Source of the DNA: Aldrovandia affinis
Lineage: Eukaryota > Chordata > Actinopteri > Notacanthiformes > Halosauridae
Length of the DNA: 64,000 nucleotides
Reading direction: 5' to 3'
Assembly: GCA_029706075.1 (NCBI GenBank)
Contig: JAINUG010000087.1
Span: 434,001 to 498,000, forward strand
Position numbers and translations under genes: made by a program. The notes beneath the pieces are model-generated. The model was given only the letters and a program-made list of their open reading frames with translations. It ran no database searches and had not been told where the DNA came from. This document shows, piece after piece, positions 5,675-55,032 of this stretch (its first letter is position 1; every line of letters begins with the position of its first letter).

Positions 5675-5851
5675 CAGAGGTGTCCGACCTGATCCGAAAA
5701 GGGTGCAGGCTTGATTAAAAGCCATGATTAGTTGATCTGTTGAATCAGTGCTGGGCTAGAACACAAGCCTGCAGCCACACCGGCCCTGCCCAGATAAGAT
5801 TGGACACCTCTTATCAGAGAGGTGGAGGTGGACTCTTATTGGACACCCCTG
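5675..5851. mobile_element. hAT-type MITE
   Basis: The copy begins CAGAGGTGTCC and ends GGACACCCCTG, an inverted terminal pair. The internal block GTGCTGGGCTAGAACACAAG is shared with the better-preserved copy at 52.1 kb. The flanks CCGTAGAG and CTGCAGAG agree at six of eight positions, consistent with a decayed 8-bp target duplication as made by hAT transposases. It carries no coding sequence. Confidence 0.7.
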
Positions 5852-17799: not shown

Positions 17800-18505
17800 G
17801 GACTAGGAGCTACCGGAAAGCCAGTGACTATTTTACACCCTACAGCCCACACACAGTACTACAGGAGAGCCAGTGACTATTTTACACCCTAAAGACCCCA
17901 TACAGTACTACAGGAGAGCCAGTGACTATTTTACACCCTACAAAACACACAGTACTACAGGAGAGCCAGTGACTATTTTACACCCTACAGCTCACACACA
18001 GTACTACAGGAGAGCCAGTAACTATTTTACACCCTACAGCCCACACACAGTACTACAGGAGAGCCAGTGACTATTTTACACCCTACAGAACACACACAGT
18101 ACTACAGGAGAGTCAGTGACTATTTTACACCCTACAGCCCACACACAGTACTACAGGAGAGCCAGTGACTATTTTACACCCTACAGCCCACACACAGTAC
18201 TACAGGAGAGGCAGTGACTATTTTACACACTACAACCACACACAGTACTACAGGAGAGCCAGTGACTATTTTACACCCTACAGACCCCATACAGTACTAC
18301 AGGAGAGCCAGTGACTATTTTACACCCTACAGAACACACATAGTACTATAGGAGAACCAGTGACTATTTTACAACCTACAGGCCACACATAGTGCTACAG
18401 GAGAGTCAGTGACTATTTTACACCCTACAGAACACACATAGTACTATAGGAGAGCCAGTGACTATTTTACAACCTACAGGCCACACAGTACTACAGGAGA
18501 GCCAG
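17800..18505. repeat. About 49-bp minisatellite
   Basis: Fifteen or so tandem units contain AGTACTACAGGAGAGCCAGT and GACTATTTTACACCCTACAG, spaced 46-53 bp, followed by a variable CCCACACAC or AACACACA segment. The length variation sits in that CA-rich segment, and the rest of the unit is well conserved. The first and last units are the most diverged. Confidence 0.95.
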
Positions 18506-32180: not shown

Positions 32181-32755
32181 CCGGTTCTGTTCAGGAGGGG
32201 GCCAGACCGAGCAACGCTCTGTTCGGGAGGGGGCTGCAGCGAGCCAGGCTCTGTTTGGTGGGGGGCTGCAGTGGGCGAGCGACGTTCTGTTTGGGAGGGG
32301 GTGCGGTGAGCGAGTGGTGATTTGTTCGGGAGGGGGCCTCAGCAAGCAATCAGTGATCTGTTTGGGAGGGGGCCGCAGTGAGCGAGCAAGGTTCTGTTAG
32401 GGAGGGGGGCAGTGAGCGAGCAAGGTTCTGTTAGGGAGGGGGCCACGGTGAGCGAGCAAGGTTCTGTTAGGGGAGTGGGGCTGCAGTGAGGGGCGAGCAA
32501 GGTTCTGTTAGGGAGGGGGCCACGGTGAGCGAGCAAGGTTCTGTTAGGGAGGGGGCAGCAGTGAGCGAGCAAGGTTCTGTTAGGGAGGGGGCCACGGTGA
32601 GCGAGCAAGGTTCTGTTAGGGAGGGGGCCACGGTGAGCGAGCAAGGTTCTGTTAGGGAGGGGGCCGCAGTGAGCGAGCAAGGTTCTGTTAGGGAGGGGGC
32701 CGCAGTGAGCGAGCAAGGTTCTGTTAGGGAGGGGGCCACGGTGAGCGAGCGACAC
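32181..32755. repeat. 36-bp G-rich minisatellite
   Basis: About fifteen units of GTTCTGTTAGGGAGGGGGCC plus ACGGTGAGCGAGCAAG. Units from about 32385 rightwards are near-identical, alternating CCACGG and CCGCAG variants; units to the left are progressively diverged. Each 36-bp unit is 12 codons, so stop-free frames run through on both strands, for example SVREGATVSEQG. I treat these as repeat artefacts. Confidence 0.95.
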
Positions 32756-38000: not shown

Positions 38001-38294
38001 ATACTTAAGGCACCTAAAAACTGACCAGTTATGTTCCTTACAGTTATCATTTAGAATAGAATATAATACATTACTGTCGATTAAATATTGCAAAAAATGG
38101 AAGGAAGGAAGGAAGAGGTTTTCACTGATTACAAGATTTCATACCCCCAAGCCCCAGGGAGGCCATGCAAAACAAGTACTTATGTTGTAACAAGGCGCAA
38201 TAGGCACCCCTTTTATTTGAAGAAAATATACTAATAGACAAAGAAATACTGAAAAATATTGCACACAAATACTAAATTGTAAAACTCCAAGATA
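35092..38294. other. 3.2-kb repeat-poor stretch, candidate conserved non-coding DNA
   Basis: No transposon or tandem array was recognised apart from a poly-C run at 37141-37150. Segments near 36700-37110 and 37380-37620 have balanced composition and homeodomain-like TAAT words (for example GATGATCATTAGCATG). Such texture is common in conserved regulatory DNA near developmental genes, but I cannot align it here. Confidence 0.3.
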
Positions 38295-38295
38295 T

Positions 38296-38964
38296 CTAAA
38301 GCATTGAAAGCACCCAGGAGAACAGTGGGCTCCATCATTGTGAAATGGAATAAGTTTGAAACCACCACAACTCTTCTTAGAGCTGGCCGTCTGGCCAAAC
38401 TAAGTAACCGGGCAAGAAGGGACATGGTCAGGAGGTGACCAAGAACCCAATGGCCACTCTAAGAGAGCTTCAGAGTTCCTCTGCAGCGATGGGGGAACCT
38501 GGTAGAAGGACAAACATCTCTGCAGCACTCCCATCAATCAGACCTTTATGGTAGCACTTGGCATTCAGGCCAAAAATTTCAATTTGTGTCTCATCAGACC
38601 GGATAATCTTTTTCCTGATGCTCTTAGAGTCCTTTAAGTACCATTTGGCAAACTCCAGGTGGGCTGTCATATGCCTTTCACTCAGAAGTAGCTTCCGTCT
38701 AGCCACTACCATAAAGGTCTGATTGATGGGAGTGCTGCAGAGATGTTTGTCCTTCTACCAGGTTCTCCCATCGCTGCAGAGGAACTCTGAAGCTCTCTTA
38801 GAGTGGCCATTGGGTTCTTGGTCACCTCCTGACCATGTCCCTTCTTGCCCGGTTACTTAGTTTGGCCAGACGGCCAGCTCTAAGAAGAGTTGTGGTGGTT
38901 TCAAACTTATTCCATTTCACAATGATGGAGCCCACTGTTCTCCTGGGTGCTTTCAATGCTTTAG
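38296..38964. repeat. 259-bp near-perfect inverted repeat with 151-bp loop
   Basis: The left arm at 38296-38554 and right arm at 38706-38964 are exact inverted copies except for one base (G at 38494 against a position that would require A). They have equal length with no gaps. The 151-bp loop is single-copy Tc1 transposase sequence. Arm boundaries: CTAAAGCATTG on the left, and CTACCATAAAG starting the right arm. Confidence 0.95.
38470..38712 (-). pseudogene. Tc1-like transposase, DDE region start, running into inverted copy
   Basis: The 80-codon frame contains HLEFAKWYLKDSKSIRKKII then RSDETQIEIFGLNAK, with the first catalytic Asp of the DDE triad at residue 40 (38593-38595). After NAKC the frame enters the inverted duplicate and the sequence becomes unrelated (HKGLIDG...). 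The second Asp and the final Glu are not present. Confidence 0.8.
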
Positions 38965-39004
38965 CAATGTTTTTATACCCTTCCCCAGATCTATGTCTCA
39001 ACAC
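38822..39004 (-). pseudogene. Tc1-like transposase N-terminal fragment
   Basis: The 60-codon frame includes GEGYKNIAKALKAPRRTVGS and IIVKWNKF, then TTTLLRAGRLAKLSNRARRD. This is the helix-turn-helix and GRP-like linker region of Tc1 transposases, here with RAGRLAKLS. The frame ends at a stop, whereas related genes continue, so a mutation separates it from the 38470-38712 frame. Confidence 0.8.
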
Positions 39005-39310
39005 AATTCTATCTCGGAGGTCTATGGAGAGTTCCTAGGACTTCATGGCTTGGTTTTTACTCTGACATGCACTGTCAACTGTGGGACCTTACATAGACAG
39101 GTGTGTGCCTTTCCAAATCAAGTCCAATCAATATAATTAAGCACAGCTGGACTCCAATGAAGGTGTAGGCCCATCTCAAGGATGATCAGAAGAATTGGAC
39201 AGCACCTGAGTTAAATATACAAGTGTCACAGCAAAGGGTCTGAATACTTATGGCCATGTGATATTTCAGTGTTTATTTTGTAATAAATCTGCAAAAATTT
39301 CTATACAAAT

Positions 39311-40800
39311 AACACATTTAAACTGAACAATAAATATTTTTACAGCTAACATAGTTACTTCTGTAATTAGGTTATTACATAATGTCATTATGCACAAACC
39401 AGACTTAAGATAGCTTCTGCTGTTTTGCTGCTAGTTTAGCTATTGACCTCCACCCCTCCCCCACTTCGGGTTTCTAGCAGGTGAGGACTAGGAGACTTCA
39501 TAGGCTGACAGACAGCAGAAGCAGTGTGATGAAAAAGTCACATCATGCCTGCCCAATGCTAGCGTAGCACTGTAGCGCAGATGAGCGAGACTGAAGTGAG
39601 CGCGCGTCTGTGTCTGTATATGGAGAGATGTGTGCGTGCGCCCCTTGCAGGCATGCCGCCCTAGGCGACTGCCTATGTCGCCTATGCCAGGATCCACCAC
39701 TGCGTGTTGGAGATAGTGAGTGCTGAGAAAGCAAACTAGTGTGGATTATTGGATACGACCCGGATTGTTTTGAAAACCTGCTTTGTGCACCGAGCATCTA
39801 ACATCTAACGACCATCCCGACTTGGAAACCAACCATTGGACTACAGACTTTTGACAACGAGTAAAGATTATGGATTGGACTTGATAACACCCCCTCCCCT
39901 TGTTAAATCTCCCCAATAAAATATGATTGTTTCAAATGCATACTTTGTATGCAAGGTTTTGTTATTGATCATAGCTGTGTGGAAACCCCACACCCCTGAT
40001 CTTGCCACACTACCTATTTATGGGAATAAAATATAGGTAGCTGGCAAGATAATCAAGCTTGTTAGGTACAGTGCAATAAAGTCAAGGCTAATTGCTAGCA
40101 AGCTGGCTAGTCTGCTTACTCACATACCGATTTCCAATGTCCTACTTCCCTTTTCTACTGTCGTTATCTAAATCAAAATAAATGTACACAACTAAACATT
40201 TCATGCTGAATTGATGCTGAATGTTTCATAAAACCCATCTACAGAAGCCATACAGAGTGATTTAAGGGTTACATTTGAAATACATTTTTAATATTTTCCT
40301 GGTGTATTCAAATGTATAATTTATTCAAGATTTGCTGATACTGATTCATCTGATCAGCAGCAGCTTTTATGTTCACCTTAATTAGGGCTTTTGGTTCTTA
40401 CAGCGTGTGAATTGGTCGAATTCACAGATAAAAAAGTGTATATACTTAAATTTCCTTTATATTTCATATATTTTCACATATTTCACTAAAGCCAACATTC
40501 ACTCAAATATCACATGTGATCACATTATCCCATAACTCACGTGTTCCACACTGATACATTTTTTACATTGATCTTCAATTTTCTAATAAAATGCTAACAG
40601 AAAAAATAGGTGCTCAAAAGTCCCCAAACAATCCTAAACGAAAGCAGCAAACTTTGAACTGCAACAAGAAAACCTCAATTAATTTTATAAATGGTGCAAA
40701 AGGTAGTGATTGGACATCATTCAGTCACAATTTACAGTAAATATATATTCCTGAAGCCTTCACGATGCATGGACAATGCCTTCATTAAAATATGAAGGGT
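39311..40800. other. Unique sequence with one possible hAT-like end
   Basis: At 39640-39703 the minus strand reads CAGTGGTGGATCCTGGCATA and GGCGACATAGGCAGTCGCCT, resembling a DNA-transposon terminus, but no partner was found. The rest is AT-rich without a gene. Confidence 0.3.
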
Positions 40801-45369: not shown

Positions 45370-45669
45370 TCTCCCAATTTGGTAGCCAATTACCTGTGTG
45401 CTTAGTTCAATCCCCCTTCCCTCAAGGGCAAAGCGCTGCCTCCTCCGAGACAACACTCGTCGTGCCGTCAACTGTAATTCCGGTACCCTAGAACCACTCC
45501 TGTGCGCAACGGACTGTGTTGGCTTCCCTCCCCCCTCCCTGGGGCGGACAGCCAATTGCCGTCCCAATGGCACTCCCAACCAGAGCCGACTGTGGCGCGA
45601 CAGGGAATCGAACCCCGGTCGCCGTGGCCAGCGTCAGACGTTGAAACCACTAGACCACGTGGGAGGCCC
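45370..45669 (-). mobile_element. tRNA-Glu-like SINE, inverted
   Basis: On the minus strand the head reads CCACGTGGTCTAGTGGTTTC (A box like tRNA-Glu), GACGCTGGCCACGGCGACC and a B box GGGTTCGATTCCC. A GC-rich body with GGGAGGGGGGAGGGAAGCC follows, then the tail GTAATTGGCTACCAAATTGG GAG. It aligns by eye along nearly its whole length with the plus-strand copy at 54.68-55.03 kb. Overlapping 187- and 123-codon frames are by-products. Confidence 0.88.
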
Positions 45670-52077: not shown

Positions 52078-52279
52078 CAGGGATGTCAATCTTATCCGAG
52101 AAGGGCCAGTGTGGGTGCAGGCTTTTGTTCTAGCCCTGCACTAAAACACCTGATTCAACTAATTCACCAATCATGGTCTACAATCAAGACCTTGGTTAGT
52201 TTAATCAGTTGTTTAGTGCTGGGCTAGAACAAAAGTCTGCACCCACACTGGCCCTTCTCGGATAAGATTGACACCCCTG
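52078..52279. mobile_element. hAT-type MITE nested in a mariner-type element
   Basis: The ends are CAGGGATGTCAATCTTATCC and, inverted, CAGGGGTGTCAATCTTATCC. Arms of about 68 bp match except at three positions. The 8-bp flanks TTATAGAT (52070-52077 and 52280-52287) are identical target duplications. It is the same family as the 5.68 kb copy. Confidence 0.93.
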
Positions 52280-54679: not shown

Positions 54680-55032
54680 GGCCTCCCGCGTGGTCTAGTG
54701 GTTTCAACGTCCGACGCTGGCCACGGCGACCGGGGTTCGATTCCCCGTTGAGCCAGAGTCGGCTCTGGTCGGGAGTGCCATCTGGGCGGCAATTGGCTGC
54801 CCACCCCAGGGAGGGGGGAAGGAAGCCGACACACACAGTTCGCTGTGCACAGAAGTGGTTCTGGGGTACCGGAATTACAGTCGACAGCACGACGAGTGTT
54901 GTCTCGGAGGAGGCAGTGCTTCGCCCTTGTCACTGCCGGTCACAGGGCTACGGCAGCAAACTATAAGGGAAGGGGGATTGAACTAAGCACACGGGTAATT
55001 GGCTACCAAATTGGTAGAAAAGGGGTAAAATC
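54680..55032 (+). mobile_element. tRNA-Glu-like SINE
   Basis: Head CCGCGTGGTCTAGTGGTTTC, ACGTCCGACGCTGGCCACGG and B box GGGGTTCGATTCCCCG closely follow the tRNA-Glu layout. A roughly 250-bp GC-rich body contains GACGAGTGTTGTCTCGGAGG, then the tail GGTAATTGGCTACCAAATTG GTAG and A-rich sequence. The B box is perfect, so this may be a fairly young copy. The 45.4 kb copy is its inverted partner. Confidence 0.9.

Follow-up and report, generated by a model that had tools for sequence, protein, structure and literature searches.

A transposase-less palindromic Tc1/mariner family with one core and several types of ends in the genome of Aldrovandia affinis

The hairpin in the window and its host site

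The DNA analyzed here, hereafter the window, is a 64,000-nucleotide stretch of contig JAINUG010000087.1 of the halosaurid fish Aldrovandia affinis. Comparison of the window with itself showed two 259-bp arms, one base apart (38494 G against the complement of 38766), bracketing a 151-bp loop, as had been described in the initial annotation of this DNA; the arm pair was 99.6% identical over 259 bp, with a BLAST E value of about 1e-130 within the window. The transposase reading direction of the hairpin piece is the minus strand, on which a 70-residue piece between stops (38825 to 39034) matched the Pfam family HTH_SB (PF25787; E value of 1.8e-22) and the Sleeping Beauty PAI structure (PDB 2m8e; E value of 3.1e-5). 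A stop at codon 4 and further stops downstream break the frame of the gene remnant in the right arm. The initial annotation was thus right to read the arms as the N-terminal region of a transposase, duplicated in inverted orientation within a Tc1-like, frame-broken element. The loop holds an SDET...FGLNAK stretch (SDETQIEIFGLNAK), which we take to be the first catalytic block of the transposase, and the fold-back would therefore lie just past this block, in agreement with the proposal that the arms are joined where the gene reaches it. The hairpin at 38296 to 38964 is real, but the element-derived DNA reaches further, to 39303, and is itself a fragment of a 1,633-bp dispersed palindrome (Table 1).

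Table 1. Features of the hairpin locus and its flanks, in window coordinates.
Feature	Positions	Strand	Basis
Internal fragment of palindromic Tc1, both terminal inverted repeats absent	38296..39303	-	Reference positions 483-1490 of 1633; 1006/1008 identical to full-length L002
Left arm as kept in the window	38296..38554	+	Arm positions 483-741; full arm = 741
Fold-back junction, family-wide	38554..38555	.	24-mer across the junction, genome counts
151-bp loop, next transposase stretch in single copy, holds SDETQIEIFGLNAK	38555..38705	-	Sequence and arm borders
Right arm, portion paired with the left arm	38706..38964	-	Self-comparison
Right-arm remainder, unpartnered in the window; 5' UTR and transposase start, codon-4 stop	38965..39303	-	Arm positions 144-482
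Sleeping Beauty-type HTH remnant (PAI subdomain)	38825..39034	-	PF25787 HTH_SB; PDB 2m8e
Left flank, piece of the unrelated dispersed repeat hosting the fragment	38143..38298	+	Repeat-copy comparison
Right flank, same dispersed repeat; directly after the left flank in other copies	39302..39336	+	Repeat-copy comparison

The two flanks of the fragment are contiguous in other copies of the unrelated repeat, e.g., L073. Comparison of the junctions, CCAAGATAT/CTAAAG...TTTCT/ATACAAAT, with the uninterrupted form, CCAAGATATATACAAAT, placed the fragment at an ATAT site, with 0 host bases lost and a duplication of at most 1 bp. Because the ends required for transposition are absent from the fragment, it would have entered as filler DNA during break repair and not through transposition.

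Self-comparison also brought out other repeats in the window. A tandem array at 17810 to 18505 repeats about every 98 bp, its copies being about 92% alike, and another tandem-like array, with about 84% identity between copies, lies at 32183 to 32750. A palindromic stretch of about 200 bp (52078 to 52279; 84% identity) also matches 5722 to 5815, and an inverted pair (45370 to 45668 and 54680 to 55018; 81% over 339 bp) is probably one dispersed repeat present twice.

A dispersed palindromic family

The genome searched comprised 1.22 Gb in 2,576 contigs. With window positions 38200 to 39100 as the query, the 40 candidates scored, out of 2,157 at first look, included copies 98 to 100% identical from about 38296 on. 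The junction search suggested in the initial annotation, performed with the 24 bases across 38554/38555, gave 832 exact sites, rising to 1,239 when up to 2 mismatches were allowed, and the reversed-pattern control gave 0 in both cases. Public viral and prokaryote contigs each contained 0 matches to the junction, as expected for a eukaryote sequence.

An intact copy is 1,633 bp long and consists of two 741-bp arms, each with a Tc1 end, the 5' UTR, and the transposase DNA-binding region, around the central 151-bp loop. Copy L002, for instance, spans CAGTGGGTTCGG to CCGAACCCACTG with this length, these arms, and the loop as it is in the window. TA was found at both sides in 15/15 copies aligned end to end; TA flanks and the CAGT... 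ends of Tc1/mariner (Sleeping Beauty-like) elements are thus present in full copies, and absent from the end-less window fragment. A complete DDE transposase is absent, given the stops in the window copy and the turning back of the sequence after the loop. The family has no working gene, a high copy number, and inverted repeats that reach the element ends, as non-autonomous inverted-repeat elements do. It is a transposase-less palindromic Tc1/mariner (Sleeping Beauty-like) element, dispersed at about a thousand places in the genome.

These results also bear on whether the hairpin arose here alone, through a single local fold-back template switch, or is an assembly or library artefact, as the initial annotation had considered. 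The near-perfect arms, the broken transposon, and the truncation on both sides would suit such an origin, but the 832 exact and 1,239 near-exact junctions and the TA-flanked end-to-end copies rule it out, barring assembly products at every copy, and in the two sets of fetched places considered here most sit in contigs of >3 Mb; we regard its probability as negligible. The similarity of the arms, which had seemed too great for an old transposon, is unremarkable since near copies are young, as the match between the window fragment and L002 indicates.

In total, 43 palindrome copies were studied in detail: the window copy, the seven best matches (L002-L008), and 35 junction sites (L027-L061). The latter were drawn from the first 38 junction sites in the list, of which 3 were skipped; because these 3 ranked among the 40 best matches, type A (ends CAGTGGGT) is somewhat under-counted in the figure of 15/35 junction-site copies. 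The other 20 had different ends or were too short to type. Seven of these 15 type A copies were full, 5 had a deletion in one arm and kept both ends, and 3 were truncated. For three of the five one-arm deletions, the alignments overlapped by 7 to 8 bases at the break (an exact overlap in L038, and one containing mismatches in both L036 and L041), and the remaining two had no overlap; these breakpoints fit palindrome instability. Two copies, L043 and L046, carry different one-arm deletions with a common start at reference base 302/303.

We also considered whether the family could have been kept because its hairpin RNA yields small RNAs that silence Tc1 elements. PMC1192797 mentions a theoretical role for endogenous double-stranded RNA produced by transcribed Tc1 elements of fish. 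Read-through RNA from the minus strand of 38296 to 38964 has a predicted fold of -582 kcal/mol (z-score of -42 against 20 shuffles), and the promoter regions of the two arms would point into the element. However, one arm is partly deleted in 5 of the 15 sampled type A copies, all with both ends, which would weaken the hairpin, and the TA-flanked spread is accounted for by transposition alone, making a silencing role unlikely.

One core, several end types

When type A was compared with the other palindromes pooled, 634 of the 741 arm positions were identical, 42 with low support were set aside, and 65 were diagnostic. All 65 diagnostic sites differed in both arms and 0 in one arm only, and 63/65 fell within arm positions 1 to 326. 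The end module thus covers about arm positions 1 to 326, and at least 4 end types (A, B, C, and D) occur on one palindromic core. Typing of the outer segment by single-linkage clustering at 10%, applied to 59 arms, gave four groups, with 40 arms of type A, 16 of type B, 2 from L054 (type C), and 1 from L049 (type D); a single copy thus stands for type D, and type C includes one clustered copy and three copies in the trees.

Within a copy, the two ends consistently belonged to one type. Outer-segment groups were alike at both arms in 24/24 copies with both arms clustered, and by the terminal 60 bases both tips were nearest the same type in 27/27 copies recognized on both sides (19 A, 7 B, and 1 D), leaving 0/24 and 0/27 mixed-end copies that could represent intermediates. 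Two candidates were dismissed: L061, with a weak left-end match, shows by eye two type C ends that are almost the same (its tips begin CAGTCAAGCC), and in L040 the B ends lie at 768 and 1774, a weak second candidate at 1882 being set aside.

The difference between types is concentrated in the ends. Representatives of A and B were 25.2% different in the outer segment and 1.4% in the inner, and those of A and D 26.5% and 7.1%, respectively. The non-palindromic Tc1 copy L018 of the same genome differed from the palindrome by 22 to 29% in the outer segment, 7% in positions 327 to 400, and 15 to 21% in the rest of the arm, a less sharp step than that between A and B. In the stretch 327 to 400, nine non-palindromic copies were only 3 to 12% from the palindrome. 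The end-exchange point would thus lie at or inside this conserved stretch, as expected for recombination between families.

Phylogenetic analyses pointed in the same direction. For the inner segment, IQ-TREE placed all palindromes in one clade (UFBoot 89), with A, B, and C together at 98, and united the palindromes with L010, L022, and L023 in a clade with a support of 100. For the outer segment, type A and type C each formed a clade (100 and 100), D fell with L023/L010 (99), and the hypothesis of one shared origin for the palindrome ends was rejected (AU p = 1e-5). The core and end trees are therefore in conflict, the core being a single clade and the ends not. Consistent with this, the B end is 94.1% identical to L018 and the B core only 81.2%, and joining the B core to the L018 group was rejected on the inner segment (AU 8.6e-5). 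On the opposing side, B and the L018 group formed a clade in FastTree only. The D ends were nearest L023 (82%) among full-length candidates, and the L010/L022/L023 lineage is also nearest to the core. The FastTree inner tree, with A nested in B, D outermost, and most C arms next, suggests D, C, B, A as the order of end types. Counting against this order, in IQ-TREE B was not a clade on either segment and C was not one on the inner, where one L054 (C) arm falls among B, and few copies represent C and D.

An independent origin of the palindrome in several Tc1 families at one hot spot, with no exchange of ends, would also give matching arms within each end type, and short inverted microhomology could create such a hot spot. 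It is hard to reconcile with the identical junction, with inner segments of A and B that are only 1.4% apart when their ends are 25% different, or with the single inner clade and the rejected placement of the B core, and we consider it very unlikely. Instead, both ends of the element seem to have been swapped jointly in this family, on more than one occasion.

Instead of copying between arms, both ends could have been exchanged by two separate recombinations, or by a double crossover with an inverted-repeat donor carrying both ends, and two internal exchange points have been proposed for the X-E-X copies of Galileo, a Drosophila element (PMC3573991). Two separate events should, however, have left mixed-end copies, which the sampled palindromes lack by either measure, and a double crossover requires a palindromic or long-repeat donor for each type, with none among the copies fetched. 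We regard such routes as a serious possibility, albeit a somewhat improbable one.

The 50-base end of type A occurred at 485 exact sites in the genome (control, 0). Six such sites without the exact junction were fetched, and 0/6 held a transposase-bearing element; L080 is a complete palindrome whose junction is mutated, L085 is a loopless palindrome, and the others are partial or rearranged. In L085 (58 to 1091), type A arms of 368 bp and 671 bp are joined directly. Neither the donor of the type A ends nor a live transposase for type A was found at these six sites. Genome-wide, DDE_3 candidates numbered 34,365 at first look, and among the 150 scored several had long open frames; two of the best-scoring open transposases, fetched as possible helpers, had no match to the palindromic family and were dropped.

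Proposed history and comparison with known systems

At the turn, the family reads GAATGCCAAGTGCTAC/CATAAAGG, whereas related non-palindromic copies have GAATGCCAAG and then variants such as CACTACGTCTGG. Since CTAC occurs on either side of the turn, a 4-base fold-back primer is plausible. The palindrome would have been born once, from a Tc1 of the L010/L022/L023 lineage in which synthesis turned back at the short shared CTAC; alternatively, gap repair may have duplicated the 5' half on the opposite side. With two good ends, the product would have been mobile with transposase supplied in trans. Searching by pattern for places where the gene runs on in the ordinary way yielded 33 sites, and no close non-palindromic parent was found among the 17 of these that were fetched, the best inner match being 88.9% (L010) when the palindrome copy lying in L024 is left aside. 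In L024 (167 to 2012), a full palindrome is directly followed by a D-like Tc1 end (1801 to 2012), perhaps through insertion beside or into another Tc1.

Later, the ends would have been exchanged with those of other Tc1 families via recombination in the conserved adjoining segment. With the arms as templates for each other, a new end on one arm would then have been copied to the other. Among 14 full-length type A copies, 7 of which are best matches and not a random sample, the two arms of a copy differed by 0.67% on average compared to 0.79% between copies, with 2 of 5,000 permutations as low. Variant copy-sites in these 14 copies were found in one arm in 69 cases and in both in 8, which counts against regular copying between arms and indicates that homogenization is occasional. 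At arm position 33, 8/14 copies had a one-arm variant, 4 in the left and 4 in the right arm, as if the orientation of arm and loop had been exchanged. In the type B copy L035, each arm was 11% from type A and the arms were 1.4% from each other, and in five other non-A copies the arm-to-arm difference was 3.7 to 8.9%, with 8.6 to 21.7% between arm and type A. These figures imply that the arms converged once more following the exchange of ends, although the remaining arm-to-arm differences in the six non-A copies (1.4 to 8.9%) also count against frequent copying. From these comparisons, we infer copying between arms, e.g., by snap-back synthesis or gap repair, as the preferred mechanism.

Together, the results are best explained as a whole if the window holds an internal fragment, inserted as filler DNA, of a once-born palindromic Tc1/mariner family whose ends were later exchanged and whose arms act as mutual templates, an account that we consider likely. 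The transposase-less palindrome would have survived by capturing the ends of other Tc1 families, with the captured end probably copied between arms. More tentatively, the palindrome itself may keep the core alive: an end captured on one arm would spread to both, allowing the core to hop between transposase families (D, C, B, and then A) after extinction of its original parent. We find this quite conceivable, if a little short of probable.

Like fish Sleeping Beauty-type Tc1 elements, the family has CAGT...ACTG ends at TA, the HTH_SB domain, and the transposase sequence order; in contrast to them, it is a palindrome without a complete transposase, having the 5' half twice and no 3' half. With MITEs and Foldback-like elements it shares non-autonomy, high copy number, and inverted repeats, with long arms around a short middle, although usual MITE arms are much shorter than those of the palindromic Tc1 and Foldback arms, probably unlike those here, are built of tandem repeats. 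Fold-back amplification has been proposed for the fish Angel elements. In annotation, palindromes of this kind would be mistaken for broken Tc1 copies. Within Tc1/mariner, the Bari elements of Drosophila have MITE relatives, and one Bari variant carries two long end repeats of identical sequence (PMC4877112). A palindromic Tc1 of the present kind was not described in the titles and abstract openings of the open-access papers listed in the literature searches.

The closest precedent is Galileo of Drosophila mojavensis, a member of the unrelated P superfamily (PMC3573991). In its 2RT copies, an internal segment is inverted beside the ends (TIR1-F1-F1-TIR2), and in chimeric copies one central region is combined with the ends of three subfamilies (D, E, and X), both ends being of one subfamily. 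Galileo thus likewise has an inverted internal segment by the ends and a fixed core with several alike-ended types; these copies are non-autonomous, and two X copies have a similar length of about 1,640 bp. It differs in being a P-superfamily element of an insect with a target duplication of 7 to 8 bp, compared to TA flanks and HTH_SB here, and in scale, with 170 copies of all kinds studied there and 1,239 near-exact junction sites here. In addition, one end type of the palindromic Tc1 is nearest a different, non-palindromic transposon family (L018), and the inverted segment of the palindromic Tc1 spans the transposase DNA-binding region. The palindromic Tc1 thus works like Galileo but is not a member, its ends, target duplication, and domain being different. 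With roughly a thousand natural copies available in a single genome, arm-to-arm copying in long palindromes becomes testable. A fixed inverted core with the ends of several families, as in the fly Galileo, now occurs in Tc1/mariner of a fish genome, which suggests a general route by which defective transposons may outlast their own transposase.
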